This document shows positions 5,901-63,596 of a stretch of 64,000 nucleotides of DNA, one piece after another. Location: contig CAIIXF020000003.1 of the NCBI GenBank assembly GCA_903813345.2, positions 11,298,931-11,362,930 of the forward strand, in the 5' to 3' direction. The notes below the pieces were generated by a model, which was not told the DNA's origin, searched no databases, and saw only the letters and a list, made by a program, of their open reading frames with translations. The translations under genes and the position numbers were made by a program. The stretch is from Owenia fusiformis (Eukaryota; Annelida; Polychaeta; Sabellida; Oweniidae). How positions within the stretch are numbered: position 1 is the first letter of the stretch; every line of letters begins with the position of its first letter.

Positions 5901-8900
5901 ATGTGATATGGAAAATGTTCAACTGGGTACAACATAGTTTGTCAGCTGGCCCAAAAATAATCAAATGTTCCTTTTGTTTTTCTCCAGGTATAGATGCACC
6001 GAAGGAATCCTTCAATAGATGGCTCTTAGAGCGCAATGTTATTAACAGGGGTCCTGACCCTATGTTACCTAGCGACTGTACTCCAGAAATCTCGCAATCC
6101 ATGTATCGAGAAATAATCAATGATATACCAGTGAAACTGATCAAGCCCAAGTACTCAGCTGATGCTAGAAGACAGTTGTCAAAGTATGCAGAGGCAGCTA
6201 AATCAATGGTGGACAGCAGGTTAGAATTCATTACTGCTGTCTTTAGTAATTTAAAATCTGAACATAGCTAAGCCTTATAACAACAGTCTTGGCTGGCTTA
6301 GACAGGATAAAGGATTGTCTCAGATATGAACAAGACCATTCAAAATATTAACACTTAATAGAATCTATAATGCTTAAATACTGTATTTAGCTTAGCCCTA
6401 ATGTTATTTGGACAAAAATAATTTAGGTATAATTTTTGTCACCACCAAAAAGTGGTGACATAGTGTTATAGTCTCCGTTTTTTGTGGCGGCGGTTGGTGA
6501 TCGGCGGGTGGCGGTTGGTTGTTGGTGTCTGTAACAAATTCTTACAACTTAACTTATAACTTAACCCCCCTATCACACCAAACTAGTTCTTACCCGTTCT
6601 TGCCAGTCCTACGAAAATGTCGTAAACGGGCTCGATCTGGCTGCGGTCAGGATATATGTCTAAAATAATTAGCTACTTCGTTCATAAACAGTCTTCAATA
6701 CGTCCATCTCGTTCGCAGTTCGTTCAGGTCGGTGTGCAACGTAGTATAAACCGTCCCATAGTCTAGATGTTCATCATGACCTGATTACAGAACGGTATGG
6801 TCGCCATCGAATTTTGAATCGATTCAAAATTCTAAATCACATACCCCATCCGGGAAAGTCCATGAAGTTCGTAAACAGACCATAGAAAGTTGTAGCTACG
6901 TTCATTCAGTTCGCACACAGTTTAAAACCGATTCGGCAACGTTTTGATGATCACCAGAAAATGTTGAGCATGCTCTAAGTTCTGGAGGACCTACTCGTTC
7001 TAGTAGTTTCATGAAGTTTGTAAACAGATCCCAAACGGTTCTTAGTTGGTTCTTAGTACGTCAAATCCGTTCGTGCACAGTTTAAGCCCATTTTCGAGAA
7101 CGTAGTGAGAACTAGTTTGGTGTGATAGTAGGGTTCCAAATACTGTTCAGACTGACTTCAATTTTTTTTAAATCATCTACAAGTTTTCAGAAGTTCAAAT
7201 CTGACTTTATATTTAAAATTTGACTTTCAACGAAGGTCAAAAAGGTTAAAAAAGGTCTTTTTATTCTTAACTTGCTTCAAATTGACCAAATTTTTTCTCA
7301 AAATCATCTACAAGTTATCAGAAGTTCAAATCTGACTTTAGATTTTAGATTCGACCTTCTGTGAGTCAAAAAAAGTCAAAATTGTATTTTTTTAACTTGC
7401 TTCAAATTGACCAGTTTCTTTTTTCAAAATCATCTACAAGTTCTCAAAACTTCAAATCTGACTATAAATTTGACCTTCAATTTTCAAGGTCATTCTCAAG
7501 GTCAAAAAGGTATTTTTTCAACTTGCTTCAAATTGACTAATTTTTTTCAAAATCATCTACAAGTTCTCAGAAATTCAAATCTGACTTAAGATTGAACTAA
7601 TAATATTGTGAGAAACTTGGTGGTGTCATTTTGTCAATGTTAATGCCTTGTTTAATTCTATTCATCATTGTCTTGTTTCAGGTCTGTGTCTGCTGAAAGT
7701 AGAAAAATTGTAAAGTGGAATGCAGAAGACACATTTCAGTGGCTACGAAAAATGCAGAACCCATCATATGATGACTACCTCGTAAGTAACTCAAACATAG
7801 GACTCTTCATATTAAATAAAATTGCATTTGGAACATCAGCCTACATTATTGTTTACCACTAACATTCAGTTCATATGTGCAAGTTTCCATTGATGTTAAT
7901 TAATTGATTATGAATTATTATTTATTAGCAATCCATGAAGCACGAAAATCATCAAAACATGATTGATTGAACAAGATTCTGGAATCAAAATTATTTAACT
8001 ATTTCTTCAATTGTATGAGTATATTTCAACAACAAAACTAACATTAAAAGTGCGGCCCGATTTGTGGCCCGAACTAATTTGACCTGGCCTGAGCAAGCCC
8101 GACCCAAGGGCTGCCCGACTCACCCGTACTTCATATGATGACTACCTCCTTATTGTCTCAAATGCAGAACCATTCATGTTATGACTGATCACCTTATAAG
8201 TACCTTAAATGCAGATCCCTTCATGTAATGACTGACTACCTTATTAGTACCTTAAATGCAGATCCCTTCATGTAATGACTGACTACCTTATTAGTACCTT
8301 AAATGCAGAACCATTCATATTATGACTGACTTCCTTATAAGCACCTTAAATGCAGATCCCTTCATGTTATGACTGACTACCTTATAAGTACCTTAAATGC
8401 AGATCCCTTCATGTAATGACTGACTACCTTATTAGTACCTTAAATGCAGAACCATTCATATTATGACTGACTTCCTTATAAGCACCTTAAATGCAGATCC
8501 TTCATGTTATGACTGACTACCTTATAAGTACCTTAAATGCAGAACCCTTCATGTTATGACTGACTTCCTTATAAGTACCTTAAATGCAGATCCTTCATGT
8601 TATGACTGACTACCTTATAAGTACCTTAAATGCAGAACCATTCATATTATGACTGACTTCCTTATAAGCACCTTAAATGCAGATCTTTCAAGTTATGACT
8701 GACTACCTTATAAGTACCTTAAATGCAGATCCCTTCATGTAATGACTGACTACCTTATTAGTACCTTAAATGCAGAGTCCTTCATGTTATGACTGACTTC
8801 CTTATAAGTACCTTAAATGCAGATCCCTTCATGTAATGACTGACTACCTTATTAGTACCTTAAATGCAGAGTCCTTCATGTTATGACTGACTTCCTTATA

Positions 8901-11900
8901 AGTACCTTCAATGCAGATCCCTTCATGTTATGACTGACTACCTTATAAGTATCTTAAATGCAGAACCCTTCATGTAATGACTGACTACCTTATTAGTACC
9001 TTAAATGGAGAGTCCTTCATGTTATGACTGACTTCCTTATAAGTACCTTAAATGCAGATCCCTTCATGTTATGACTGACTACCTTATAAGTATCTTAAAT
9101 GCAGAACCCTTCATGTAATGACTGACTACCTTATTAGTACCTTAAATGCAGAGTCCTTCATGTTATGACTGACTACCTTATAAGTACCTTAAATGCAGAT
9201 CTCTTCATGTGATGACTGACTACCTTATTAGTACCTTAAATGCAGAGTCCTTCATGTTATGACTGACTACCTTATAAGTACCTTAAATGCAGAACCCTTC
9301 ATGTTATGACTGACTACCTTATAAGTACCTTAAATGCAGAACCATTCATGTTATGACTGACTACCTTTTAAGTACCTTAAATGCAGAACCATTCATGTTA
9401 TGACTGACTTCCTTATAAGTACCTTAAATACAGATCCTTCATGTTATGATTGACTACCTTATAAGTACCTTAAATGCAGAACCATTCATATTATGACTGA
9501 CTTCCTTATAAGCACCTTAAATGCAGATCCTTCATGTTATGACTGACTACCTTATAAGTACCTTAAATGCAGATCCCTTCATGTTATGACTGACTACCTT
9601 ATAAGTACCTTAAATGCAGAACCCTTCATGTTATGACTGACTACCATATAAGTACCTTAAATGCAGAGCCCTTCATGTGATGACTGACTACCTTATAAGT
9701 ACATTACATTAAATGCAGAACCATTCATGTTATGACTGACTTCCTTATAAGTACCTTAAATGCAGATCCTTCATGTTATGACTGACTACCTTATAAGTAC
9801 CTTAAATGCAGAACCATTCATGTTATGACTGACTTCCTTATAAGTACCTTAAATGCTGATCCTTCATGTTATGACTGACTACCTTATAAGTACCTTAAAT
9901 GCAGAACCATTCATGTTATGACTGACTTCCTTATAAGTACCTTAAATGCAGATCCTTCATGTTATGACTGACTACCTTATAAGTACCTTAAATGCAGATC
10001 CTTCATGTTATGACTCACTACCTTATAAGTACCTTAAATGCAGAACCCTTCATGTTATGACTGACTACCTTATTAATACCTTAAATGCAGAACCATTCAT
10101 GTTATGACTGACTTCCTTTTTAGAACCTTAAATGCAGATCCTTCATGTTATGACTGACTACCTTATAAGTACCTTAAATGCAGAACCCTTCATGTTATGA
10201 CTGACTACCTTATAAGTACCTTAAATGCAGAACCCTTAATGTTATGACTGACTACCTTATAAGTACCTTAAATGCAGAACCATTCATGTTATGACTGACT
10301 ACCTTATAAGTACCTTAAATGCAGAACCCTTCATGTTATGACTGACTACCATATAAGTACCTTAAATGCAGAACCCTTCATGTTATGACTGACTTCCTTA
10401 AAAGTACCTTAAATGCAGATCCTTCATGTTATGACTGACTACCATATAAGTACCTTAAATGCAGAACCCTTCATGTTATGACTGACTTCCTTATAAGTAC
10501 CTTAAATGCAGATCCTTCATGTTATGACTGACTACCTTATAAGTACCTTAAATGCAGAACCCTTCATGTTATGACTGACTACCTTATAAGTTCCTTAAAT
10601 GCAGAACCCTTCATGTTATGACTGACTACCTTATAAGTACCTTAAATGCAGAACCATTCATGTTATGACTGACTACCTTATAAGTATCTTAAATGCAGAA
10701 CCCTTCATGTTATGACTGACTACCTTATTAGTACCTTAAATGCAGAGCCCTTCATGTGATGACTCATAAGGTGTTTTCAACTACTCAAAATCCTGTTTGA
10801 ACCTCCCTGAAAATGAGGAAAAGACAGGAAAAATTGGCTTGTTTTAATTATTAGAGTCTATAAAGAACCCCAGAGTGAGAGGGTAATGAACTCAGAGTTT
10901 GTTATCTATTTGTATTCCAGGAACGTCTAGCACACCTGAAGCGCCAGTGTCAGCCCCACCTCACAGAAGCAGCCAAGGCATCAGTTGAGGGAATTTGCAG
11001 TAAAATATATCACCTCTCTCAAGAATACGTCAAAAAAATACTAGAAAAACATTGGGGAATTTTAAAGGAGCATTTCATAAAAGGTTTGAATCATTATAAG
11101 CGTTTGTTACTTTAAAATCAGTATATATCAGTAAAAATACAAAGCCCTGTCTGAAAATGTTAAATTACCCATGTTCTACTATACATTTGGTTGTCTATTG
11201 CAGAGCCCCCTGTTGAGACCCCACCAAAGAGAAAGGTGATGTGTTACCCTGTCCTCCTTGCCACTCCATGCCCTAGGGTCTCAACCCCTGATCTCAAAAC
11301 AGAAGGCGATGTGACATTTATTCGCGTTCGAGGAGAAGCTTTAAAAATAAACACAGTCCACTTTCAAAAAATGGTAAGTGTATATCTTGAGTAATACATC
11401 ATAAAGAGATGAAAATATTGCAAGTAATTTTTGAATGGACATCCTTTAAGAAAAATGAATTGTTAAGTTAATCCCTCCAGTTTGTGTGGAATTATCATTT
11501 CGACTGAACAAACCTTTAACAGCAGATCATTAGGTGTCACAAACTCAAGGCAGTTCAGTTCTTTCTACGTATGACATGAACTAAGTGATGGACCACTGAA
11601 TAGCTTGTCAGAAAACTGCTCTATTTCTCAGTGTTTCCCAAGAAAGGACATTTTGTAGTATTTAAAAGAAGTCCAGAATAACAATCATAATGTAAAATGA
11701 TTGTTGTAGGAACAGCTGTATAGGTGGAACTGTAAGGATGATCCAAAGTTTGAGTTCTTCCTAGCAAGAACTTGGTGTGTGCTGAGAAGATACCAAGTAA
11801 GAATTGCAGATGAACTTTATGTTTGTGGAAAACTAGAGATCGTGGAAGTGAGGGACTTGGGGAATGATGTAGACATGTAGTTAACAATTTGGATTAAATG

Positions 11901-32550: not shown

Positions 32551-33745
32551 AGTTCAAGTGTACGTGGACCCAGGTTAACGCGGACTGTAGTCAAGTCGGA
32601 CCCAGGTTAACGCGAACTGTAGTCAAGTCGGACTCAGGTTAAAGCGGACTACAGTCAAGTCGGACTCAGGTTAAAGCGGACTATAGTCAAGTCGGACCCA
32701 TGTTAAAGCAGACTATAGTCAAGTCGGATTCAGTTTAAAGCGGACTATATAGTCAAGTCGGACCCAGGTTAAAGCGGACTATAGTCAAGTCGGACCCATG
32801 TTAAAGCAGACTATAGTCAAGTCGGATTCAGTTTAAAGCGGACTATATAGTCAAGTCGGACCCATGTTAAAGCAGACTATAGTCAAGTCGGATTCAGTTT
32901 AAAGCGGACTATATAGTCAAGTCGGACCCAGGTTAACGCGGACTGTAGTCAAGTCGGATCCAGGTTAACGCGGACTATAGTCAAGTCGGATCCAGGTTAA
33001 CGCGGACTGAAGTCTAGTCGGATCCAGATTACAGCGGACTATAGTTAAGTCGGCCCAAGCTGACACAGTGGACCCAGGTTAACGCAGACTGTAGTCAAGT
33101 CGGACCAAGGTTAACGCGAACTGTAGTCAAGTCGGACTCAGGTTAAAGCGGACTACAGTCAAGTCGGACTCAGGTTAAAGCGGACTATAGTCAAGTCGGA
33201 CCCATGTTAAAGCAGACTATAGTCAAGTCGGATTCAGTTTAAAGCGGACTATATAGTCAAGTCGGACCCAGGTTAACGCGGACTACAGTCAAGTCGGACC
33301 CATGTTAAAGCAGACTATAGTCAAGTCGGACTCAGGTTAAAGCGGACTACAGTCAAGTCGGACTCAGGTTAAAGCGGACTATAGTCAAGTCGGACCCATG
33401 TTAAAGCAGACTATAGTCAAGTCGGATTCAGTTTAAAGCGGACTATATAGTCAAGTCGGACCCAGGTTAACGCGGACTACAGTCAAGTCGGACCCATGTT
33501 AAAGCAGACTATAGTCAAGTCGGATTCAGTTTAAAGCGGACTATATAGTCAAGTCGGACCCAGGTTAACGCGGACTGTAGTCAAGTCGGACCTAGGCTAA
33601 CGCGGACTGTAGTCAAGTCGGACCCAGGCCAACGCGGACTGTCGTCAAGTCGGACCCAGCTGGTTGACGCGGACTGTAGTCAAGTCGGACCCAGATTAAA
33701 GCGAATTGTAGTCAATTGTAGGGTCGAGGTTAACACGGACCCATT
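32551..33745 (+). repeat. 32 bp minisatellite (GTCAAGTCGGA repeat)
   Basis: About 36 copies of a 32 bp unit: 'agtcaagtcggacccaggtt' followed by 'aacgcggactgt'. A 34 bp variant arises from an extra 'ta' ('actatatagtc'). Unit types recur as pairs: 'cccatgttaaagcagactat' followed by 'ttcagtttaaagcggactat' occurs repeatedly through the array. The edge copies are degenerate. It lies about 2.7 kb beyond the inferred end of the FoxF transcript. Confidence 0.93.
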
Positions 33746-40700: not shown

Positions 40701-43700
40701 GTGACAACTTATTCTCCCCTTATCCCAAAAGTTTCATTTTCCTCCCCGAACCCGGACAAGCCTTATGAGTCCGAGGCAAAGTATTTCCATCGCAATTTGT
40801 TCCTAACCAATCCCTTTGAATAAGTATGGGGCAAAAATCATTATATTGGACTTTATTTCCAAAACATTCCAACAATGTAAAAATGGAAATGTAATTAAGT
40901 GCTCAAAGTTGACCCTTTGCCAGATGGATGAGTACAATGTAATACAGAAATGTCATCTCTTCTTCACTTGTCTTCTAATCTATTTGAGAAATTGTGTGAA
41001 AACCAAAGTCCAATGTAACAAGTTTAAGACTGTGTTATTTATTAGCCTGGCATGACCGCGTAGTGATAGGTTGAGATTCATTAGGTTTTTTAAGACCAAC
41101 TTGACAAATTGGTGGCATTAAATACGAGCAAGAATGCACTAGGACCACCCTTTAGAAACCTCTGAATGCTCAGTAAGTATTCAAGCAGATGGGACCAGAT
41201 GGTGAGCCTGTTAAAACCATTAGATCATAGAAATCTGAATTTTCTTCTTCTCTTACGCGAAAGATGTTTTCCCGCTTTGATGCTAAGCAGACGGCCTAAC
41301 TCACAATGCGGTGAAACATCTCAATAAATCTTCCACAAAACCTTCTACAATCTTTGTACAAGATGTTAATTGAAACACATGTGTTTTACTTGATCTCACA
41401 CGGGAATTTTTTGATTAATTTAATGATGTGATAATGTACATTAACGAAATGGTTCTCCAACTTTTACAGCATGAGAAAATCAGAACATAAACCTCACTCT
41501 ATTTTGAAATAACCCCATACTCTTCCACCAAACAGGAACACCAGTTTGAGTGGTTTATTATTTCTTTCCTGGTCTTAATATATTCATGATATATTAATGA
41601 AGATAAAGAAATAAAGTTTATGAAGTAAACATGTAAAATAAGCGTGAAAGAGTATTTTGATTGAAAAGTTATAAATGGATTTTACCCACTTTTATATCAT
41701 GCGCTACCAGCAACGAATAATCTATAAATGCACGTGTCAGATGAAAAAGAAAATAATGTCACGACACCAACAACCACGCTCAAATAATATTATATAATCT
41801 AATTAATACTAAGTCAATAAAAATTACAGATTGTAGCAGATTATCTCACCATCGCTAAATCCATAATCCTTTTACATCACATGGCTATCAGTATGAGATG
41901 ATATTATCTTTCACTAGAATTTCTGACACTAATAATTCCGACAAGATATCAAAACAAGATTCAAGATTTCATGTCTAGCAAGAACAAGGCATTTTGTCTA
42001 CCCTTGCCCGCCCGGAGTCATTTCTATACACTTAAATCTGTACAGTTTGGGTTTTATTTTGGCAACTGGAACTTACGAAATTCTTTTTATAATCGATGAT
42101 TCAAATTTTATCCAATTTGTTAATCTTTATAAATACTTCCTGAGATTTATGTTTGAAATATATAAAGAAACATAATTTGCCTTCTAGGTTCTGGATGTTA
42201 TTTTATGATGGATAACCGTGGAATTTATTGAAGTTCTGACATGGAAGCCATTAGAGCCATGCCATGATAACAATCTCGCTGTCCGATGATTCCCCAAGAT
42301 TCGTTTTGTTTTCAAAACCTCAAGAATCTACACGTATCACTACGTGCTATGTTGTATACCACTACTGGACTCGAGTGCCCAAGCCAACAAGGCGTCAACG
42401 CTAGGCGTCAAGAACATACAGCTTTAAGCTTCCACTTTGCCCATGGCAACAAATAAGCCTCAAACCGTCAAATCTCAATTTGCTATTTGTTTTTTCATGA
42501 ACTACTCTGGCTTACTCTGTTGACGAAAATGTTTTAATTACCCAGTGAATTTTCAATATTTCTGTATTATTAACGTTATGTTTGGAAAATGTAAAATGTG
42601 TCTTAAGATATTTATTGAGTATTTAGTGAATTGTGTTCTGCAAAATGTTGCCATATTCCCTTGTTCATCACAAACATTGTAAGAAACTTTGCAAGAAATA
42701 TGTGAATTCCTTACTGGAACTCAAGGTAAGATTATGAATATCAAATATGTAAAAACTTCCTCCAAAAATGTCGTCGTGAAAATAATAGATGAACGCATTT
42801 TTAGATTTGGAGTTAAGAAAAATTACGAAATTACGCAAAATTCAAATGTTTCAAGTTTATCCAGAGTGGTGGGTATCAAAAGTGATTATTGAGCAATCAG
42901 CTGATCCGTTTATAACCCCGGGATCATCCGACAAGCATCTTGAACATGTAGGGTATAATCTGATCCACAAAACGATTGAAACTGCAGCAATTTGAGTTAG
43001 TCATGAACGTATGTGAACCAGATTGCTAATATATTGCACGATAGGGTAGCTGAGCTTTATCAGATAGATTTCAACTTGTCTGCACATCACATCCGTCAAG
43101 ATTTCTTTGAAGAATTATTTTTTCTAGGCTATTTTAATCAAACGTGTGCTTTTGAAGAATTATGATTTTCAATACAACTATTTTAACCAAACAGGTCCTT
43201 ATTGAAGATTTGTGTTTTAAACGCTATTTTAATCAAAGAATTATGATTTTCAATACAACTATTTTAACCAAACAGGTCCTTATTGAAGATTTGTGTTTTA
43301 AACGCTATTTTAATCAAAGAATTATGATTTTCAATACAACTATTTTAACCAAACAGGTCCTTATTGAAGATTTGTGTTTTAAACGCTATTTTAATCAAAG
43401 AATTATGATTTTCAATACAACTATTTTAACCAAACAGGTCCTTTTTGAAGAATTGTGTTTTAAACGCTATTTTAATCAAAGAATTATGATTTTCAATACA
43501 ACTATTTTAACCAAACAGGTCCTTATTGAAGATTTGTGTTTTAAACGCTATTTTAATCAAATAATTATGATTTTCAATACAACTATTTTAACCAAACAGG
43601 TCCTTATTGAAGATTTGTGTTTTAAACGCTATTTTAATCAAATAATTATGATTTTCAATACAACTATTTTAACCAAACAGGTCCTTATTGAAGATTTGTG

Positions 43701-46700
43701 TTTTAAACGCTATTTTAATCAAAGAATTATGATTTTCAATACAACTATTTTAACCAAACAGGTCCTTATTGAAGAATTGTGTTTTAAACGCTATTTTAAT
43801 CAAAGAATTATGATTTTCAATACAACTATTTTAACCAAACAGGTCCTTATTGAAGATTTGTGTTTTAAACGCTATTTTAATCAAAGAATTATGATTTTCA
43901 ATACAACTATTTTAACCAAACAGGTCCTTATTGAAGATTTGTGTTTTAAACGCTATTTTAATCAAAGAATTGTGCTTTTCTATACAACTATTTTAATCAA
44001 ACGTTTGCTTTTGAATGATTTTTCTTTAGGCTATTTTATTATAATGCGTTCTTTTGAAGAGTTAAATGTTTTTCTATACAACTTAAATTTAACCAATCGC
44101 GTACTTTTGAAGAATTGTGTTTTAAATGTTATTTAATCAAAGGTTTGCTTTTGAAGAGTTATGATTTTCTAAAGGATTATTTGAAATAACGCGTTCTTTT
44201 GAAGAATTATTTGTGAATACACAACTATTTTAACGAAACACGTGCTTTTGAAGAATTATGTTTTAAATGCTATTTTAATCAAATAATTATGTTTTCCTAT
44301 GGGCTATTTCAATCAAACGTGTGCTTTTGAAGAATTGTGTTACTATTTTAAAATAACGCGTGGCTTTTGAATTGTTTTGAGACACGTTTTGGTTCAGTAT
44401 TTTGTATGTATGTATTTAGAAATAAGCATATTAGCTATAGAATTTAGAATTCAGATATCATTTCATTTTAATCAAACACATGTGTTAGAGCTTTTTTTGT
44501 ATACGGATAGCATGCTATTTAATTTTTTTGGCTTTTGGCATGGTGGATGCAGGTATTACTCAGGAGGAGGGGGCAACGTTGCAATATTAAATTCACCTTA
44601 AATTGTGTGTTTAAATAATGTTTAGAATAAAATTGTCCTGGAAGCTACCGTAAGAATTATATCGTGGATAGGACAACACGATTGTTATTTTTAATATTCT
44701 ATATAGAACTCGTGTAGTTGTGAGATGAAAGTTCATCTTTCTTTACTTTCAACAAATAATTTGTCCATATTATAGACACCGGCTATAAGTTTCCCATGAT
44801 AGTTTACGTTCTGAGTTCATAAAACACAAGTAGTGCGTCTTCGAAAAACTTAGGAAAATATACAAGAAACAAAGACAGAACCAAGTGAAATGTGTTCATA
44901 ATCTTAGCATGTGGTAAAGATTTTTCTCACGTCGTATTTCACTCTAAACCGGCTCTATTCACCACCGATGCCCATAAATTAACACGATCCTTTACACCTG
45001 AGAAAACATGTTTTTTGACAGCCGAGGAGGATAGGCATAGATATGAGATATTCTGAAAAAAGAAGAAATTAGTAAGCCTTGTTAGATTATGATGAATCGT
45101 GTGTTTTGTTGCCTTCCACTGGAATTGAGAGAATTTCTTTGAAATGATATCGTATGGACAACACACTAAGTGTGCGAATGTTTGAAATCTAAAATGTCCA
45201 ACTATAAAATTGAGGCACCCTAAAGTCAGCCGTATTATTTTTTAATAGATTCGTTTTTGATTTTTTAAAATAATATATGAACTTGAATTTATCAGCTAAA
45301 ACCAAGTAACAGAAATGTAATTAAATCATGTTTTATTCGTGTTGATTAGATACATATTTGTTCCAATCTTTCTCTTATTCTTTCATTGCTTTGTTCCATA
45401 ATTTAATACAACTTAAGAAAAGTCACATGGTTCCATTATTACTGGCGTTCATGTCTGAACAAAGTTACAAGATCCGAATTTCAAAACATGGCAACTGATC
45501 CGATGCCGACTATAAGACATAGGGAAGTAGCTTAAAGACGGAACTATTTACTTGAATTAAAACCGATTTTTGAATATATGTAGAGAACATTTCATTTATT
45601 CTAAAGCCTTTATTTTATTGTAAAGCTCATTGCTTATTCAAAAGTATAATTAATTTTTCAGAGGATTCCGTTATTGAAGCTTCAGGATAGATGTTAAGTA
45701 AACTATGAATTGAAATATTGTAGGTTGTTTATTTTTATTTATTTTACAATGATTGTATTTGTAAATATTTTTCTAAGTTGTGGGGCTTATGGTTAGTTAG
45801 TCTATATTTATGTAATTGCATAACTGAAGATAATATTGAAACATTAAACCTAAATATTTTGTAATCAATTTCTATAAAATAGTAAAACGGTATCTATAAC
45901 AATGAAGCTCATGGTAAACAAATTGAACAACCACATCATTCTTTTTGGCCATTCAGTAATACCTCGTTCCCTATTTACAAACTGAAATGGTCGTTTAGAG
46001 CCTTACTCTTAGTTTATCTTTAATTCTGATAAATTACTGGACTGAATAACTTAGTTTGTGAAAGCATTTACACACAAAATATTTGAAATATTGTCTTGTA
46101 TAAGAATTATTAGTACATACTAATAATTCTAGAAAACTTTTTGAAAATTATAATATTACCTGTTGATGCCGACATGGCGAGATCTACGGGTTCTAGGGTA
46201 GCTTGGGACACAGGCACCTGCTGTGCGTAACTCGTCTCGTTACTGGAGGTGGGAGATAAACTGAGGGACCCTGTGCTCCCCGTCGGCGACAGCGGTTGCT
46301 GTTTTACATTGTTATTACTGGATATGTTGTAGCGTTGAGCTTGGGACGCAGCACTCCATTGTTCCCGCGTCTCATATGGGCTAGGGTTAGAGGTAGGTAG
46401 TTGTGTCGTACTATAGTCTTTATAATCTTGAGATGTTGGGTTATATTTATAGTCTTGTGTGATTGGTGAGTACTTGTACTCAGATGGTGTCGTGGGTAGC
46501 GTATGCGATCCTACTCCGCTATATTGTTGAGAAAGGCTTGTATTTGGTCCCGTCATTGAGCCCATAATGTTTCCATATACGGTGGAGTTGCCCATGGCGG
46601 CTGCCATGTTGTTTGGATCGTATTGCTGAGCGGTGTTATTGCTAGGTGTTTGCATGTTCATCGTCATTCCATTTTGGTGGAACATATCGTAGGCACCTCC

Positions 46701-47393
46701 AAGCATGCCTGAGTTAGGGTGACCATGCATGGCAGCCATACCGTAAGGGTGCATCATTCCGCTCATCGCCTGACACTTGCGCCTAAACCCCCTCGGGCGT
46801 CGTCTATAAGATCCTTCTTCGAACATAAACTCAGCCGCAGGATCAATCGTCCAATAGTGTCCCTTCCCTGGTCGACCCAAACCCTTTGGGAGCTTCTTGA
46901 AGCATTCGTTCAGTGATAAGTTATGCCTCACCGAGTTTTTCCACCCTGTGTAAGAGCCTCGGAAAAATGGAAACCTTGTTTGCAGAAACTGGTAGATCTC
47001 ACTAAGTGTGCATCGCTTCGTTGCACTCGCTTGGATTGCCATGACAATCAGTGCGATATAAGAATAGGGTGGTTTCTCTTGTCGTCTCAGTCCAGCGGGT
47101 TTCATCTTACCATTTTTAGGGCTACCAGGAGCTTCCTTAGCATCACTGTTTTTCTCCTCTATATTATTAAATACACGATCATTCTGATCAGTTGACGTTG
47201 AGTTACGGTCCATGCAAGATGTTGTATTTGGTGAAGTGTTTGCAATTTTTTGCAAAGTTGTATTGCTCGATTGTTCAAGTTCTTTTACGGCGCCTACACC
47301 TTGAGGCGCAAACTGGCGCTTTAGATCTTCTACTATATTATCACCCATCATGGTGATTGCCTCCTGCTTAACGTATGCATTGTTTGGATTCAT
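37618..47393 (-). CDS. FoxF: FoxF forkhead transcription factor
   Basis: DNA-binding regulator of visceral (splanchnic) mesoderm development in bilaterians. Two coding exons: 46160-47393 and 37618-37793, joined by an 8.4 kb phase 1 intron (ACAG|GTAATA ... TTTCCAG|GA), giving 469 residues. Forkhead domain at about 106-200 ([16 protein letters not shown]; recognition helix [15 protein letters not shown], 151-165), then the basic [10 protein letters not shown] characteristic of FoxF. KQQPLSP in the C-terminal half and the exon 2 tail with YDRK and [11 protein letters not shown] fit the FoxF C-terminus. The start is the first ATG of the frame, with an acidic and Ser/Thr-rich leader. Two AATAAA signals on this strand (36407-36419) suggest a 3'UTR of about 1.2 kb. 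The forkhead domain cannot belong to FoxL1, FoxC or FoxQ1 because of the FoxF-specific flanks. Longer than vertebrate FoxF1. Confidence 0.97.
37800..43150. other. FoxF intron, 3' part
   Basis: AT-rich intronic DNA with no repeat array and no recognised transposon. A 157-codon frame on the FoxF strand (39443-39916) is the longest non-repetitive anonymous frame in the window. It shows no domain I recognise. Non-repetitive, less AT-rich patches, e.g. about 41080-41320, are where intronic enhancers might sit, but nothing in the sequence proves it. Confidence 0.4.
43156..44370 (+). repeat. 81 bp tandem repeat in the FoxF intron
   Basis: Ten near-identical 81 bp units (43156 to about 43970; 'attatgattttcaatacaac', 'tattttaaccaaacaggtcc', 'ttattgaagatttgtgtttt', 'aaacgctattttaatcaaag'), followed by diverged copies to about 44370. 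Each unit has two related halves ('gaattatgattttc...ctattttaaccaaac' and 'gatttgtgtttt...ctattttaatcaaa'). Because 81 is divisible by 3 the array is open in one frame for 324 codons, opposite in strand to FoxF. Near-identity of the central copies indicates recent amplification or homogenisation. Degenerate flanks are older copies. Confidence 0.93.
44371..46159. other. FoxF intron, 5' part
   Basis: AT-rich intronic DNA between the 81 bp array and the FoxF exon 1 donor. Nothing recognised. Confidence 0.4.
46160..47393 (-). CDS. FoxF: FoxF exon 1 (forkhead domain and activation region)
   Basis: Encodes residues 1-411 and the first base of codon 412. After the forkhead domain the sequence is Met/His/Asn-rich (residues 210-290), then carries short imperfect repeats: [20 protein letters not shown]. 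It ends [20 protein letters not shown] and a Ser/Thr/Gln-rich stretch. The frame reads on past 46160 only by running into the intron. The GTAATA donor is required to join the conserved C-terminus. Confidence 0.96.
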
Positions 47394-50300
47394 CTTTAAG
47401 ATATTCTCTGACTTTGTTTCCCCTACAGAGTCGCAATATTAAACACTGGGGCTGTTTGATGATAAGACCCTTAACGCACGAATAAGTTCTAAACGCCCAG
47501 AGATAACTACAGATTGCTTGCGTATGTCGGAGCGTTGCCTGTGCACAACTGGGGATTGTTCTTCATCAGCGCCGTCTCCACAACTCTGTATTATTTCTAA
47601 ATGTTTACTTGACAGCTTCGGTTACTCAATGCTTTCCTGCTATGTGTCTAACTCGACAGAGAATGATCCAAATTCTTAACAGTTAGTCCTTTTAAACCTC
47701 CATGAAATTCAAGCTGAATCTTAATGCATAGTGAGCGTTATCAAATCCTCCCGCTGAGTCCAGACTCACCAAGAGCATACCCATCTGGACCACGTGACCT
47801 GTCAGTCTTTGATTCTGGATTATGATTGGCGCAGATCTCTAACGAACGCAAGCGATCCAAAGAATTCACAAATCCACATCAAGTGAAGAAAAAATGTTTG
47901 AAAACAAGTTTTAAGAATATGCCTACCCTATGGAGTAGTTGAAACGAACCGAGATAAACGGATAATGATGTTGCAGATTTGTATTGTTTTTCTAAAACTG
48001 GTATTTTATTCTTGCAATTACTAACACAGTATGGTGCCTGTTAAACTAATTAGGAATGAGATATTTGAGATCATCACATTTAAAATTCTGGGTCTAAACC
48101 ACCGTACTAAGTCCGGGGCCACCCAATTGAATACAATCGGGCGAAATATGAGCCATTTTGACCCTAAATCCTTTTCACAATGTATTTATTTTCATATAGT
48201 CGATCTTAAGTCACTTCTAAGACTGTGTCTTATTTCTTGTGGACAGTGTTTGTTGTTTTCCCTGATTTTAAACTATTTCAAAGACCCCATTATCTAGTCT
48301 CAAAATGTACTCTGTCAACGAGCTCTTTGTATGATACCAATGGGTGACAATATTGCAAATAAATTGCAGATTTTCGGTTCATGCAAACGCGTTTGCTGTA
48401 TTCAAATGTTGCCCTTGTGCTTTCTAATGAAGTACAGGACCAGGGATTATGGACCGAAAGAACATTATATAAATGCACGTATGAAGCAATGACCTCTTTG
48501 GCCACTTATGGAATTGCCTCCTGATCTAGGGGCCAAAGAAACCAATTATTTCCTCCAACTCCTTTTGAAATGCAAGAATGCTGAAACACCTGGTTAGTTC
48601 AATGCTGAGTAACATAAATCTACACGATTCTATGACTCTTTAGATCATTTCTTAATCTGATGACGTCAAACGCATTCATAAAGTCTAGAATAATGTCAAA
48701 AATACGACATCGTATAGGTTTTTAAGTAGCAACCTCACAGGTCCGGGGTTGGTAGGAAATATTTGCCGAGATTGTGTATACAGTCACTTAGTAGACCACT
48801 TGTAAGATTTAAAAACAATTCCTACTGTTACTAGTATTTTTTGTTTATCTAACAGTATCTTTTACTCTTTTTAAGATACCTCTCTGCTTGGGTTTAAAAT
48901 GTTCAATTATTTCACCATATTTTCTTTTTGGCAGACTCATTTCAGAAGTTGTTTTACATGAAGTCGGGGTGGGGGTTAGATGGTTTGTTTTGAATGTGGC
49001 TTTTTGTTTTTACATTTTTTACTGTTTCATATATCTGTTATTGTTTTCTACTTGAACATGATTTAAAATCTCATGCACTGAACATGTCAATACGTGTTGT
49101 ATGACACCGATATTGTCGAGAAAGAAGAAGGTGCAGCATGAGCAAAACGATGAGATAGGATGGTCTGAATAGAGTTTAAATCGGTTATATGAAACTAAAT
49201 AATAAAGCTGAAAAAACTAAATATGACAATAATTATGGTGACGTACCACAAGCACATGTAACAGGTCCCGTCTTGTAAATTAAACCACCAGTTGAATATC
49301 AGGAAGGTCCCGAAACTGCGCGTAGAGAAATTAAAGTTGCTGAATGGAATATCAAAGATGCTATCATCTATAAAAACAATTGTGATTTATTTGACCAATC
49401 GCTTAAATACAGTTAATATACTAGGGTCCAAGATGAGAAAATTGAAACTCGATAGCAGGTCTGGAGGGGGTCCAAATGTAATAGGCGACAACTCAACCCA
49501 GAACTTTTCGAGTCAAGTGTTTCAAAAACATTCCTTCGCAACATGTATTTAAACGCAGTAGCCAATTTGACTGCTAGAGAAAATGCGATCCATTTTCAGT
49601 GGTTTTCTAAGTAATATCAGGTTGTCTAAGTGGCGTACTGATTTTCTTATAAAATTAGATAAAACATTGAAATAAAATAATTGTAATTTCCGTTACATTG
49701 CACCACGCCAGAAGTCCTAAATATTGGACATCAATCCAATCTAATAACTGTCTTTGGTTTTATTAAATGTTTATATGTTTATATATATTTTTAAAACTGG
49801 TTACGGATGTGTCTAGTATTATCATCGATGTAAACATACATGGCTTTTTTCTTTTGGACAATGCATTGACGAATAGCCGCAACACCCACAGCATTCTATG
49901 CATAACTTAAACATAATTATATCATATCTCGATATAATTTTAAGATATATGTATAATTTAAACGAATGAAGGTCTTTTGATATATGCAAACTGAAATATT
50001 AACTACTCATTAAAATGAAATGTTTAGGAAGTAAAGATACAACAAAAATGGTAAAGATACACTAAAGGATGAAACAAACACTAACAGTATTTACAACGCT
50101 AAGGGTCGCGTAAAATGAGACATGGCATATAGAAACCAGAACTTTCGGAACGACAAGGGGACCAACGAATGTTTCATGTCGAAGATCCTGACATTTTGAC
50201 TCATGTACATAATTTACTGCAATAGTTTATGATTTTCCGCATTTCCATCTCCCCAAAATATGTAGCTCGAGTTATCGAGAGAGAAGCTAAAAGAATACTT

Positions 50301-57001: not shown

Positions 57002-58912
57002 CTAGACGACGAGAGACTCGCAACAGCAGACATCTGGGTCGCTATTGAACCACATCTGAAAGCCATCCATATCCATGGGACAACACTCAGATCTGAAACC
57101 GAGGAAAAAGTGAATTAATAGCGAACGATGTAGCCATGGATAGTAACGATATTGTACTGCTAGCCAGCCTGACCACCTACCTTGTTGTGCTAGCCTGCCT
57201 AACCACCTCCCTTGAAGTGCTGACCAGCCTGACCACCTACCTTGTAGTGTTACCCGTCCCTCCACCTACCTTGTAGAGTTGGCTGGTCCTCTACCTACCT
57301 TGTAGAGTTAGCTGGTCCTTTACCTACCTTGTAGAGTTGGCTGGTCCTCCACTTACCTTGCAGAGTTAGCTGGTCCTCTACCTACCTTGTAGAGTTAGCT
57401 GGTCCTCCACCTGCCTTGTATTGTTAGCTGGTCCTCCTCCTGCCTTGTAGTGTTAGCTGGTCCTCCACCTGCCTTGTAGAGTTAGCTGGCCCTCAACCTG
57501 CCTTGTAGAGTTAGCTGGTCCTCCACCTGCCTTGTAGAGTTAGCTGGTCCTCTACCTACCTTGTAGAGTTAGCTGGTCCTCCACTTGCCTTGTAGAGTTA
57601 GCTGGTCCTCCACCTGCCTTGTAGAGTTAGCTGGTTCTCCACCTGCCTTGTAAAGTTAGCTGGTCCTCTACCTACCTTGTAGAGTTAGCTGGTCCTCCAC
57701 CTGCCTTGTAGAGTTAGCTGGTCCTCTACCTACCTTGTAGAGTTAGCTGGTCCTCCACCTGCCTTGTAGAGTTGGCTGGTCCTCAACCTACCTTGTAGTG
57801 TTAGCTGGTCCTCTACCTACCTTGTAGAGTTAGCTGGTCCTCCTCCTGCCTTGTAGAGTTAGCTGGTCCTCCACCTGCCTTGTAGAGTTAGCTGGTCCTC
57901 CATCTGCCTTGTAGAGTTGGCTGGTCCTCAACCTACCCTGTAGTGTTAGCTGGTCCTCCTCCTGCCTTGTAGAGTTAGTTGGTCCTCCACCTGCCTTGTA
58001 GAGTTAGCTGGTCCTCCACCTGCCTTGTCGAGTTAGCTGGTCCCCAACCTAGCTTGTCGAGTTAGCTGGTCCTCCACCTGCCTTGTAGAGTTAGCTGGTC
58101 CTCTACCTACCTTGTAGAGTTAGCTGGTCCTCTACCTACCTTGTAGAGTTAGCTGGTCCTCTACCTGCCTTGTAGAGTTAGCTGATCCTCTACCTACCTT
58201 GTAGAGTTAGCTGGTCCTCTACCTGCCTTGTAGAGTTAGCTGGTCCTCTACCTGCCTTGTAGTGTTAGCTGGTCCTCTACCTACCTTGTAGAGTTAGCTG
58301 GTCCTCCACCTGCCTTGTAGAGTTAGCTGGTCCTCTACCTACCTTGTAGAGTTAGCTGGTCCTCTACCTACCTTGTAGAGTTAGCTGGTCCTCCAACTAC
58401 CTCGCGGTGTTAGCTGGTCCTCTACCTACCTCGCAGTGTCAGCTGGTCCTCTACCTACCATGCGGTGTAAACTGTTTCTCTACCTACCGCGTAGTGTTAG
58501 CTGGTCCTCAACCTACCTTGTAGTGTTACCTGGTCCTCCTCCTGCCTTGTAGTGTTAGCTGGTCCTCCACCTGCTTTGTAGTGTTAGCTGGTCCTCCACC
58601 TGCCTTGTAGAGTTAGCTGGTCCTCAACCTACCTTGTAGTGTTACCTGGTCCTCCTCCTGCCTTGTAGTGTTACCTGGTCCTCCTCCTGCCTTGTAGTGT
58701 TAGCTGGTCCTCCACCTGCCTTGTAGTGTTAGCTGGTCCTCCACCTGCCTTGTAGAGTTAGCTGGTCCTCAACCTACCTTGTAGTGTTAGCTGGTCCTCA
58801 ACCTACCTTGTAGTGTTAGCTGGTCCCTCCACTATGACGTATTGAATTGGATGTTCGGGGTCCTCCTCGTATTCGAGAGTTTCATACCAATTTCCAGCTC
58901 TGCAGCACTCAG
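57002..58912 (-). CDS. cysteine module B2 split by a satellite-filled intron (last two exons)
   Basis: Exon 58807-58912 reads AECCRAGNWYETLEYEEDP, EHPIQYVIVEGPANTT. Exon 57002-57092 reads (R)SECCPMDMDGFQMWFNS, DPDVCCCESLVV and ends TAG. Aligned to B1 ('CC...P-QYI...EC...C-C') it is the same module, but here an intron of 1714 bp interrupts it at GPANTTR|SEC. The last exon has an alternative frame (DLSVVPWIWM...), rejected because only the cysteine frame matches the phase 2 donor. The donor CAAG|GTAGGT is also part of the repeat unit that fills the intron. Confidence 0.78.
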
Positions 58913-61900
58913 CTATAAAGTGAGTCACCACTATGAAATATATTCTTAATATCAATCAAATATTAATCTTGAAATCAGCAAGGTCGGTGAACAACATATA
59001 CTTAACTAATCCTTATGCACTTTATTTGTTACATCACTGTGAACATATATAGTTCTGACCTACCCCCTTCGACAAAGGGAAATGGGTTGCAAGGTGGGTC
59101 TGTATTGGCGTCCTCGCAGAACACGCCCATGCACTCCATGATTGCACCACTCGAGTCGCATGTCTTCTCCTCGTCATTCCAAGCTGCAAAAGGTGACAAG
59201 GCGAAAGAATCGATATTGCATTTTGCAATACTTACAGGTTTCCAGTTTCCCAAGGAATTCCAAATGGGATATTTTTAATTCTCCTAACATTCCAAGGGCA
59301 AATGATGAGTGATATAGTCACAATTTGAATGCTTGTCTTCCTAGTTTCGATGTCGACTGGGGATCAATGACCCAGTTGCCATACTCGATTTCATACCCCG
59401 TTAACATTTGATATAAAAACAACATGATTCTTAATATGTAACATTTTAAGAGAGAGTTTCCGTTTCTTTTCTTTATTGTAATTTCTACTTACTTGATGGA
59501 GCAATACATCTTCCGGATGTGAAGCCAGTCCTGTTTTGGAAACACTGTACGAATGAACAGCAAGGATCAAATTCATCCGCAAAGAGAAAATGATCGTGGT
59601 TGTCACATGGAGGAATCTCTTCAACTGTTAAAAGTAGTTTCGTGGTGATACAAATGATACAAAAACATAAACTCAAAACTCATAACTGTACTGTTATGGG
59701 TTCTTATTATGAATAGATGAAGCTCAAAGAAGCAAAATCATACTGTTGAATGAGGTAGAAAGAGGAGAAAAGTAGTTGATCGAGGAGAAATAGCTTATTG
59801 AACCAACCGCAGCTACTTACAAACTTGGACACAAGCACACGCTTCGAGATCAAACACTTCGTCCAAAGGGCACTCCTGAAATTCTCTCATTCCATCTTGA
59901 ATATATTGTGCGGGACCATCTCCTTTGCTATACATTGGTTTCACTCCGAATATACCTTCCTCTAAATTTTGTCCTACACAGCACGTGGTATCTATAAAAA
60001 TCAGCAAAATGATTGATGAAACATATATATCACGAGAGAAATACAAATATTGTTTATTTCAAGGTAACAGGGTAACGTTTAGGTCATTTAAGATTTAACC
60101 ACAGAAATACCAATTTTTCACATGAATTTCTCTCTTGAATGTGCAATTTCCCCCCAAAAGTCTTTAACTTTGGCAAAGGCTACAATTACGGTTTTAAAAT
60201 GAATGTTTGAGACTCAATTCTAAACTGTATAGATAGATTAGATAGTATAGTTTGGCAAAAACTGACAAATATTTGCAGTTACTGATATGATGAGCGTTAT
60301 TGATATCTCAAATTCTCAATACCGGTGGGCTGAGGGCTTTCACACTCCAACTCTTGAATATTTGGAACATCACATGACCCCACGTCACAATCGGGAACAT
60401 ATTTAGCGAGATCACATGTCAACAAGTCTTGATTCCAGGCAGTACCATCGTAACATTTTCCCACAAGTCCTGGATAAAAGCATTCGTCAGAAAATTAAAA
60501 ATACCAGATTTTTTAATATCCTGGGATGAAGATAACAATGTGTCCCTCGTGTAGTACATAACTTCTTTATAGGGATATTTTTTAATGTAATTCTGTTTGA
60601 CACGAGGGAATAACACAAAATTGAAACAATAGTTCAAAAGATATAACCATAAACGTATACTTTGACTTGTAGCCCGTTGAAATTATTTTTACCTGTTTTA
60701 TTCAACTCGGGGTCGTCACAGAAAATGAAGGTACAGCAATCTTCTCCGAGCTCACTCCCAGCTATATATCCAAACTGGCTGAGACATAGGTCTACAATCG
60801 GATTTTATGTAAAACATGTTCATGACGGAGAAGCAAGTTGATCTGTCAAAATTTTACAGATTATGTAGACATTTTTAAATTAAAACCTTCGCTTAGACAA
60901 GAAGTGATCAAATATCGATTAAACACCAAAGAGGAGATGTAGTAATCGAATGGGAACAGTAACACGACTAGTGGGGACGAGAAGAATGGTCATAGTGGGG
61001 ACAAGAAGTAATCAAATGGGAACAATAACACTAGTGGGGACGAGTAGTAAGAATAAATGTGAAGAATGGTCATAGTGGGGACAAGAAGTAATCAAATGGG
61101 AACAACAAAACTAGTGGGGACGAGTAGTAAGAATAAATGTGAAGAATGGTCATAGTGGGGACAAGAAGTAATCAAATGGGAACAACAAAACTAGTGGGGA
61201 CGAGTAGTAAGAATAAATGTGAAGAATGGTCATAGTGGGGACAAGAAGTAATCAAATGGGAACAACAAAACTAGTGGGGACGAGTAGTAAGAATAAATGT
61301 GAAGAATGGTCATAGTGGGGACAAGAAGTAATCAATTGGGATCAACAAAACTAGTGGGGATGAGTAGTAAGAACAAATGTGAAGAATGGTCATAGTGGGG
61401 ACAAGAAGTAATCAAATGGGAACAACAAAACTAGTGGGGACGAGTAGTAAGAATAAATGTGAAGAATGGTCATAGTGGGGACAAGAAGTAATCAATTGGG
61501 ATCAACAAAACTAGTGGGGATGAGTAGTAAGAACAAATGTGAAGAATGGTCATAGTGGGGACAAGAAGTAATCAAATGGGAACAACAAAACTAGTGGGGA
61601 CGAGTAGTAAGAACAAATGTGAAGAATGGTCATAGTGGGGACACGAAGTAATCAAATGGGAACAATAACACTAGTGGGGACGAGTAGTAAGAATAAATGT
61701 GAAGAATGGTCATTGTGGGAACAAGAAGTAATCAAATGGGAACAACAAAACTAGTGGGGACGAGTAGTAAGAATAAATGTGAAGAATGGTCATAGTGGGG
61801 ACAAGAAGTAATCAAATGGGAACAATAACACTAGTGGGGACGAGTAGTAAGAATAAATGTGAAGAATGGACATAGTGGGGACAAGAAGTAATCAAATGGG

Positions 61901-63596
61901 AACAACAAAACTAGTGGGGACGAGTAGTAAGAATAAATGTGAAGAATGGTCATAGTGGGGACAAGAAGTAATCAAATGGGAACAATAACACTAGTGGGGA
62001 CAAGTATTAAGAACAAATGTGAAGAATGGTCATACTGGGGCAAGACGTAATCAAATGGGAACAATAACACTACTGGGGACCAGTATTAAGAACAAATGTG
62101 AAGAATGGTCATAGTGGGGACAAGAAGTAATCAAATGGGAACAATAACACTAGTGGGGACGAGTAGTAAAAACAAATGTGAAGAATGGTTATAGTGGGGA
62201 CAAGAAGTAATCAAATGGGAACAACACTTGTGGGGACGAGTAGTAAGAATAAATGTGAAGAATGGACATAGTGGGGACAAGAAGTAATCAAAGTGGAACA
62301 ATAACACTAGTGGGGACGAGTAGTAAGAACAAATGTGAAGAATGGTCATAGTGGGGACAAGAAGTAATCAAAGTGGAACAATAACACTAGTGGGGACGAG
62401 TAGTAAGAACAAATGTGAAGAATGGTTATAGTGGGGACAAGAAGTAATCAAAGTGGAACAATAACACTAGTGGGGACGAGTAGTAAGAACAAATGTGAAG
62501 AATGGTTATAGTGGGGACAAGAAGTAATCAAAGTGAAACAATAACACTAGTGGGGACGAGTAGTAAGAACAAATGTGAAGAATGGTCATAGTGGGAACAA
62601 GAAGTAATCAAATGGGAACAACAAAACTAGTGGGGACGAGTAGTAAGAATAAATGTGAAGAATGGTCATAGTGGGGACAAGAAGTAATCAAATGGGAACA
62701 ACAAAACTAGTGGGGACGAGTAGTAAGAATAAATGTGAAGAATGGTCATAGTGGGGACAAGAAGTAATCAAATGGGAACAATAACACTAGTGGGGACAAG
62801 TATTAAGAACAAATGTGAAGAATGGTCATACTGGGGCAAGACGTAATCAAATGGGAACAATAACACTACTCGGGACCAGTATTAAGAACAAATGTGAAGA
62901 ATGGTCATAGTGGGGACAAGAAGTAATCAAATGGGAACAATAACACTAGTGGGGACGAGTAGTAAGAACAAATGTGAAGAATGGTTATAGTGGGGACAAG
63001 AAGTAATCAAATGGGAACAACACTTGTGGGGACGAGTAGTAAGAATAAATGTGAAGAAAGGACATAGTGGGGACAAGAAGTAATCAAAGTGGAACAATAA
63101 CACTAGTGGGGACGAGTAGTAAGAACAAATGTGAAGAATGGTCATAGTGGGGACAAGAAGTAATCAAAGTGGAACAATAACACTAGTGGGGTCGAGTAGT
63201 AAGAACAAATGTGAAGAATGGTTATAGTGGGGACAAGAAGTAATCAAAGTGGAACAATAACACTAGTGGGGACGAGTAGTAAGAACAAATGTGAAGAATG
63301 GTTATAGTGGGGACAAGAAGTAATCAAAGTGGAACAATAACATTAGTGGGGACGAGTAGTAAGAACAAATGTGAAGAATGGTTATAGTGGGGACAAGAAG
63401 TAATCAAAGTGGAACAATAACACTAGTGGGGACGAGTAGTAAGAACAAATGTGAAGAATGGTTATAGTGGGGACAAGAAGTAATCAAAGTGGAACAATAA
63501 CATTAGTGGGGACGAGTAGTAAGAACAAATGTGAAGAATGGTCACAGTGGGGAAAAGCAACAAACAAGCACCTACCTGGATCTGGTATATCCACCC
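57002..63596 (-). CDS. secreted CBM14 (peritrophin-A) chitin-binding modular protein, 3' part of gene
   Basis: Probable extracellular matrix or cuticle/shell-type protein that binds chitin. Exons in transcript order: 63576-63596, 60693-60791, 60323-60469, 59821-59991, 59493-59624, 59064-59183, 58807-58912, 57002-57092. All have GT-AG borders and consistent phases, giving 294 residues from the first visible exon to TAG. The order is CBM14 (A1), cysteine module B1, CBM14 (A2), module B2. Both A domains fit the CBM14 spacing (C-x15-C-x5-C-x13-C-x12-C-x8-C in A1; C-x14-C-x5-C-x11-C-x13-C-x8-C in A2). The 5' end, with any signal peptide, is beyond 64000. No experimentally known protein comes to mind, so no symbol is given. 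Confidence 0.82.
57161..58830 (-). repeat. 29 bp minisatellite made from the exon tail and splice donor
   Basis: About 57 copies of a 29 bp unit. On the gene strand it reads ACCAGCTAACACTACAAG followed by GTAGGTTGAGG, with common variants. It begins inside the coding exon (the last 18 exon bases are one unit's left part) and runs almost to the last exon. On the gene strand most copies read CAAG|GTAGG or CAAG|GCAGG, i.e. a GT or GC splice donor. The period is not a multiple of 3, so no long frame exists. Confidence 0.93.
59064..59624 (-). CDS. CBM14 domain A2 (two exons)
   Basis: Exons 59493-59624 and 59064-59183. Reads PPCDNHDHFLFADEFDPCC, SFVQCFQNRTGFTSGRCIA, PSSTWNDEEKTCDSSGAIME, CMGVFC. 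Same cysteine spacing as A1, and again split by one intron, though a few residues later than in A1. This supports duplication of an A-B unit. A linker rich in Asp, Pro and Asn (EDANTDPPCNPFPFVEGG) follows. Confidence 0.83.
59821..59991 (-). CDS. cysteine module B1 (single exon)
   Basis: DTTCCVGQNLEEGIFGVKP, MYSKGDGPAQYIQDGMREFQ, ECPLDEVFDLEACACVQV. The pattern is CC, then about 37 residues, then C-P-x9-C-x-C. The 'ECP--EVFDLEACAC' part resembles the C-terminal motif of many invertebrate secreted matrix proteins. Entered in phase 1 and left in phase 1. The whole module is in one exon, unlike its partner B2. Confidence 0.75.
60323..60791 (-). CDS. CBM14 domain A1 (two exons)
   Basis: Exons 60693-60791 and 60323-60469. 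The domain reads LCLSQFGYIAGSELGEDCC, TFIFCDDPELNKTGLVGKC, YDGTAWNQDLLTCDLAKY, VPDC. The aromatic and Asp residues around YDGTAWN----TCD are typical of the chitin-binding surface of CBM14. An intron falls after ...LNKT and G|. A Cys-containing linker (DVGSCDVPNIQELECESPQ) follows. Confidence 0.85.
60950..63560 (+). repeat. 80 bp minisatellite filling the micro-exon intron, with higher-order repeat
   Basis: About 32 copies of an 80 bp unit: 'gaagaatggtcatagtgggg', 'acaagaagtaatcaaatggg', 'aacaacaaaactagtgggga', 'cgagtagtaagaataaatgt'. The sub-motif 'tagtggggac-ag' appears twice per unit, so the unit itself arose from a dimer. The array occupies about 2.6 kb of a 2.8 kb intron and starts about 25 nt after the micro-exon donor. 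The block 62031-62349 recurs at 62827-63145 with a 796 bp offset, including rare variants. Opposite-strand reading frames in it are artefacts. Confidence 0.93.
63576..63596 (-). CDS. 21 nt micro-exon of the CBM14 gene
   Basis: TTTTCATTTTAG|GGGTGGATATACCAGATCCA-G|GTAGGTG. It encodes VDIPDP plus split codons and joins the next exon in phase (completing Asp before LCLSQFGY). The acceptor and donor are both good, and the Asp/Pro-rich content suits the linker just before a CBM14 domain. Being so short, it rests on phase agreement and splice sites alone. Confidence 0.6.

Follow-up and report, generated by a model that had tools for sequence, protein, structure and literature searches.

Anatomy of the 29-bp array and its host gene

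The window analysed here, meaning the whole 64-kb stretch of DNA from the annelid Owenia fusiformis, carries on its minus strand a gene encoding a Cys-rich protein. A Pfam search with the family protein returned no match; the exons are referred to by module. The last intron of this gene is occupied almost entirely by a minisatellite, and the features are as follows (a slash marks a splice junction):

57002..57092, minus strand: last coding exon, exon 5 (SECCPMDMDGFQMWFNSDPDVCCCESLVV stop), from frame and homology
57093..57151, minus strand: non-repeat tail of the intron, 59 nt, with pyrimidine tract and acceptor (...CTTTTTCCTCGGTTTCAG), from alignment and genome search
57093..58806, minus strand: intron, 1714 nt, GT...AG, phase 2 (AG/A), boundaries predicted from frame and paralogs
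57152..58806, minus strand: minisatellite, 57 intronic units, from TRF and cyclic alignment
58807..58835, minus strand: 29-nt unit copy within the exon, ATAGTGGAGGGACCAGCTAACACTACAAG, from cyclic alignment
58807..58930, minus strand: coding exon 4 (first part of module D4), from open frame and homology with 17 paralogous loci
59064..59183, minus strand: coding exon 3 (module D3), ends set by eye
59494..59622, minus strand: coding exon (module D2), match extent only
59819..59992, minus strand: coding exon (module D1, the D4 homologue), uninterrupted, match extent only
60372..60458, minus strand: coding exon (module E1), match extent only
60691..60786, minus strand: coding exon (module E0), match extent only

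Exon 4 ends in ...IVEGPANTT plus the AG of a split Arg codon; its last bases are ...GGACCAGCTAACACTACAAG, followed by GTAGGT as the start of the intron. Exons 4 and 5 join in frame to a TAG, and their combined peptide aligns with the paralogs across the junction, so that the peptide would be unchanged by the predicted splicing. The initial annotation had described a 29-bp unit composed of an exon tail plus its donor, which proved accurate except for the division of the unit: at the predicted boundary, it combines the terminal 20 nt of the exon with 9 nt past the donor, rather than 18 with 11. Its estimate of about 57 copies filling the intron agrees with our cyclic alignment, which placed 57 intronic units between 58806 and about 57152, besides one exonic copy. 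By TRF, the 29-bp period spans 57233-58832 (55.1 copies, 90% matches), with a 30-bp edge at 57152-57276. The first 54 units are all 29 nt long and the final three are diverged. As had also been proposed, the array begins within the reading frame, since a unit copy is exonic, and intronic units 1, 3, 4, 9, 19, 35, and 47 match the 20 nt at 58807-58826 exactly over their exonic part. Two other details required revision: the array stops 59 nt before the next exon, not about 70, and the 5’ splice site ascribed to every unit is a GT in 27 of the 57, the remainder starting with GC (28), CT (1), or GG (1). A repeat of such length is not attributable to chance.

Units containing the exon-like AACACT gather near the exon, with 9 among the first 14 vs. 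5 among the next 40 (Fisher 0.0004; this cut was chosen post hoc, and other cuts give 0.0001 to 0.013), while unit identity showed a marginal trend with distance from the exon (Spearman p 0.051). We searched the genome (498,259,871 bases in 525 contigs) with 116 nt of array units and obtained 19 places, all of them within the 57152-58806 array, in a search that ignores simple repeats and highly frequent words. The 59-nt tail has a single genomic occurrence, which rules it out as a repeated element.

The array also presents a clean splicing problem. Scored with a human weight matrix, 22 downstream sites equal or exceed the true donor, yet each of the 56 donor-like sites further down that score above 5 bits would run into a stop after residue 42 of the exon 4-5 reading frame. 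None of the 56 would keep the frame or yield an intact protein, so the first donor is needed for one. Its choice is likely explained by exon definition starting at the upstream acceptor.

Paralogs, family introns, and arrays elsewhere in the genome

A protein search of the genome returned 69 exon matches, mostly on contig C4, and 19 stretches over the better of these formed our paralog set. Seventeen loci (L034-L050) have clear D4 matches; of the other two, L051 lacks a D4 match and that of L052 is weak (E 0.12) and likewise continuous. The frame runs uninterrupted across the splice point in 17/17 loci, as illustrated by L041, which reads QYLIVEGPAASERLQCCPLDMQGN vs. QYVIVEGPANTTR/SECCPMDMDGF in the host gene. 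The Arg whose codon is split in the host gene is an Arg in every one of the paralogs except L035 (16/17), and the GP is kept in 7/17. Since all 17 encode this stretch without an array, the coding sequence must predate the array that was made from it. Judged from these comparisons, the exon is the source of the array, in agreement with the reading that the initial annotation had favored. The absence of the intron from the paralogs is a point beyond that annotation. Module D1 aligns with D4 (hhalign probability 90.1, E 1.6e-6), forms one exon at the matching place, and, by this homology, is an internal outgroup for the D4 intron within the host gene itself. With the intron missing from all 17 paralogs and from D1, it is best read as a newcomer, most likely gained in the host gene. 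In a protein tree of the host gene and 16 paralogs (L048, L051, and L052 were left out for coverage), the deep nodes have ultrafast bootstraps of 11 to 69; thus, the tree alone can neither prove a gain nor exclude a single loss in other genes.

As read from the predicted gene structures, intron positions are labile in this family, with five distinct positions across two exon regions. D4 introns occur ~20 codons upstream in L041, L046, and L048 and about four codons upstream in L034. The E0/E1 junction is continuous in 10 loci (L037, L038, L039, L042, L043, L045, L047, L049, and L050 by adjacent matches; L035 by reading), a judgement that leaves aside L036, L040, L048, L051, and L052. It is interrupted at NKT-G in the host gene and L046, with only the acceptor side seen in L041, and three codons past NKT-G, at NKTG.VG/KCMGG, in L034 and L044. 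The E0/E1 introns of L034 and L044 are, by their sequence, mirage-like. The L034 array has a 52-bp unit of exon tail plus donor in 11.4 copies and begins ...AACTGAACAAGACTGGATACGTAG/GTGAGT, while L044 has an 88-bp unit of exon tail plus donor, of which two full copies and a third, broken one lie at the limit of the sequence analysed, which may not include the first copy. L034 and L044 do not group in the protein tree, yet their mirage-like introns lie at the same codon position (V G/G), for which either parallel gain or shared history may account. L034 also has its last exon piece twice (5431-5508 and 7319-7396), 1.9 kb apart with identical protein, and these could be alternative last exons. 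In L042 and L043, 48-bp arrays occupy the intron preceding module D2 (4121-4496 and 4442-5046, respectively); that of L042 reaches about 6 nt before the exon, which places it on the acceptor side.

Donor-bearing arrays elsewhere in the genome were sought as three tandem AGGTRAGT sites at a spacing of 20-50 bp. This pattern gave 617 matches vs. 523 for the reversed motif, indicating that the donor motif is not clearly over-represented in tandem arrays. Among the matches listed on C1 up to 19.4 Mb, there were six donor-motif arrays vs. three others; one array detected with the reversed motif coincides with that of L060. The six are all those among the first 100 places in genome order, not picked for exons; a pair of clusters separated by 1.1 kb was treated as a single array. 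Five of them (L055, L056, L057, L059, and L060) begin at a predicted exon end with an acceptor and open frame, while the 5’ edge of the sixth, L058, gave no clear exon end. The L057 edge, which encodes a Rieske motif (Pfam PF22543, 3.4e-8; PDB 3d89, 1.1e-8, the latter match extending up to the final residue), is on this sequence certainly an exon. The exon calls for L055, L059, and L060 were made from open frames and splice sites only, and L056, whose 33-bp unit stays open, may be a coding repeat. Open-frame length at the six edges compared to random positions gave a modest combined Fisher p of 0.012. No Pfam family exceeded its cut-off for L055, L056, L058, L059, or L060, the best for L060 being DUF4904 at 0.018, below its cut-off, and genome searches for paralogs of the L059 and L060 exons retrieved only the exon itself each time. 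A further array on C6 (G000:C6:20703966-20704904), with a 49-bp unit, has the translation YGDPTPSVTWYK ahead of its donor, which we take to resemble an Ig-domain motif.

Origin of the array and the intron

Taking the anatomy, the reading frame, the exon without array or intron in the paralogs, and the like repeats in two of these as direct observations, we consider it likely that the array is a mirage-type minisatellite, that its intron came to split what had been a single exon of the Cys-rich gene, and that the array was seeded by tandem duplication of the exon 3’ end together with its donor. According to this proposal, the end of the coding exon and its 5’ splice donor would have been tandemly duplicated to create the seed of the array. 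With the first donor (58806) spliced to the 57093 acceptor, all extra copies would then be removed; the protein would thus stay constant at any copy number, leaving the copies free to multiply and drift. From the sequence, we infer the use of the first donor in vivo, the gain rather than loss of the intron, and the growth of the array by unequal exchange or slippage.

How the intron itself came about is a separate issue, and there are several possible routes. According to the Rogers model, the duplication would itself have given birth to the intron, making array and intron a single event: an exon stretch ending in AG is duplicated, the junction changes from AAG/AT to AAG/GT and becomes the first-copy donor, and the AG of the last copy serves as the acceptor. 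We regard this as a serious possibility, albeit one that falls somewhat short of even. The exon 29-mer directly before the donor is one unit length, and the part of the unit after the donor is similar to exon sequence preceding the 20-nt tail when five unit heads are aligned up to GAGG (right-anchored shuffle, p 0.001-0.022), but the likeness is weaker with other anchoring (p 0.03-0.18) or unanchored (p 0.28 by shuffle, 0.13 against genomic 60-mers). On the donor side, 20 of the 29 nt are certain as duplicated exon; the remainder has p values of 0.001-0.28 depending upon the test. Elsewhere in the genome, the unit is nearly all exonic in L056 (31/33 nt) and L060 (36/41 nt), and the post-donor parts in L059 and L057 resemble the upstream exon (shuffle p 0.008 and 0.013; genomic 60-mers 0.036 and 0.018, respectively), whereas the first 11 nt past the L034 donor have no such likeness (p about 0.998). 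The post-donor likeness is compatible with a donor born where two duplicates meet, without amounting to proof. The model also leaves the origin of the 3’ splice site unaccounted for, because the similarity of the 59-nt tail to exon 5, suggestive by eye, is not significant (p 0.08-0.56). That tail is neither a repeat nor significantly like an exon, which accords with the idea that the intron came by another route, or slid from a neighboring position, and that the minisatellite later grew over an existing 5’ boundary. The five intron positions in two exon regions of this family speak for the same idea, to which we assign a nearly even chance; against it, two events are required and the post-donor part of several units appears exonic.

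An intron that is ancestral and was lost in the paralogs is, by comparison, unlikely. Intron loss is generally common and the deep branches of the tree are poorly resolved, but such a history must contend with the absence of the intron from all 17 D4 loci as well as the homologous module D1, while the other introns of the family genes were retained. The initial annotation had also raised the notion that the array could have recruited an exon end, and a pre-existing satellite might conceivably have inserted and recruited or overwritten the end of the exon. Nothing beyond that initial caution speaks for this, and we consider it highly improbable, as the exon tail is homologous to paralogs that carry the same stretch without an array, which rules out recruitment, and the genome search found the array nowhere else. 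Returning to the duplicated exon end as the seed of the array, the three cases in this family and the C1 arrays may be snapshots of one process at different ages, in which exon ends are tandemly duplicated, expand to a minisatellite, and are spliced as new introns. That introns have been born repeatedly in this genome in such a manner is a suggestion we make only tentatively.

The initial annotation knew of no named family of this kind, but the mirages of amphioxus match it, as far as the available text of two reports describes them (PMC3087553, PMC3902484). Mirages are tandem repeats across exon-intron boundaries, described for the Adh3 and globin genes and there proposed as a path to new introns that does not disturb regular splicing (PMC3087553), with TnC and PGBD5 added in the other report (PMC3902484). 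Similar to those of Adh3, BflGb6, BflGb9, TnC, and PGBD5, the present unit spans the (predicted) exon-intron boundary and AG/GT occurs in many of the units rather than in every one; a proposed link to intron gain and harmlessness to splicing are likewise reported for mirages in these texts. Unlike what is described there, 57 intronic units here fill an intron that the paralogs lack, several such arrays are present in one genome, and the host is an annelid, whereas the mirage hosts reported so far in these sources are cephalochordates. Among the reports listed by the literature searches, which cover few subscription papers, we found none of mirages outside of lancelets. The array is probably of a kind already known as a mirage, here in a strong, repeat-filled variant with paralog evidence and in a phylum other than that of the lancelets.

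A review of intron gain by tandem duplication (PMC4974935) covers, among others, a fission yeast case with an exonic repeat of 24 bp. As in the cases available from that review (ATP2A1, the fission yeast repeat, and potato RdRp), the new intron would be made of exon copies and the peptide unchanged; unlike them, the acceptor side here is not traced to a copy, and the copy number is far above theirs, the fission yeast introns extending across four and two duplicates. Minisatellite expansions also alter gene structure in human paralogs (PMC2812944). Like the present array, they have units of ~30 bp that remodel genes in recent paralogs, with putative new introns among the outcomes, but they average ~4 copies, and for 66% of the intron changes a repeat-retaining transcript exists as well. 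The birth of spliceosomal introns is a long-open question with few recent cases, and a family that has uninterrupted, interrupted, and repeat-filled versions of one exon within a single genome would offer a direct test of duplication-driven intron gain.

Other features of the genome and the window

The Eryth_link_C family, which we take to be the annelid erythrocruorin linker, has three matches over its cut-off in this genome, clustered on C6 and one with an internal stop, whereas 14 control genomes had no match. For the GFP family, which is abundant in lancelets, this genome has no matches, and the control genomes gave none either. Together, these outcomes point away from a lancelet host.

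Within the window, the arrays at 8160-10764, 32566-33715, and 43155-44002 have no visible start at an exon end, as judged by eye. The first of these has a 47-bp unit in 55.6 copies and lies downstream of a WW-domain exon (2630-2923; PF00397, 8e-9), presumably PCIF1-like, and about 150 nt ahead of a possible later exon identified by eye. Upstream of module E0 of the host gene, an 80-bp unit is repeated 32.3 times on the minus strand (60981-63557), with no donor seen in the unit; a possible 21-nt microexon (63576-63596, by eye) ends 18 nt ahead of this array. At 43156-44136, a 326-aa open frame is built of an 81-bp (27-codon) repeat and presumably stays open just because its period is divisible by three. 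A Forkhead gene (Pfam PF00250, 6.8e-36), which we take from its motif to be FoxF-like, is located on the minus strand at 46110-47438.
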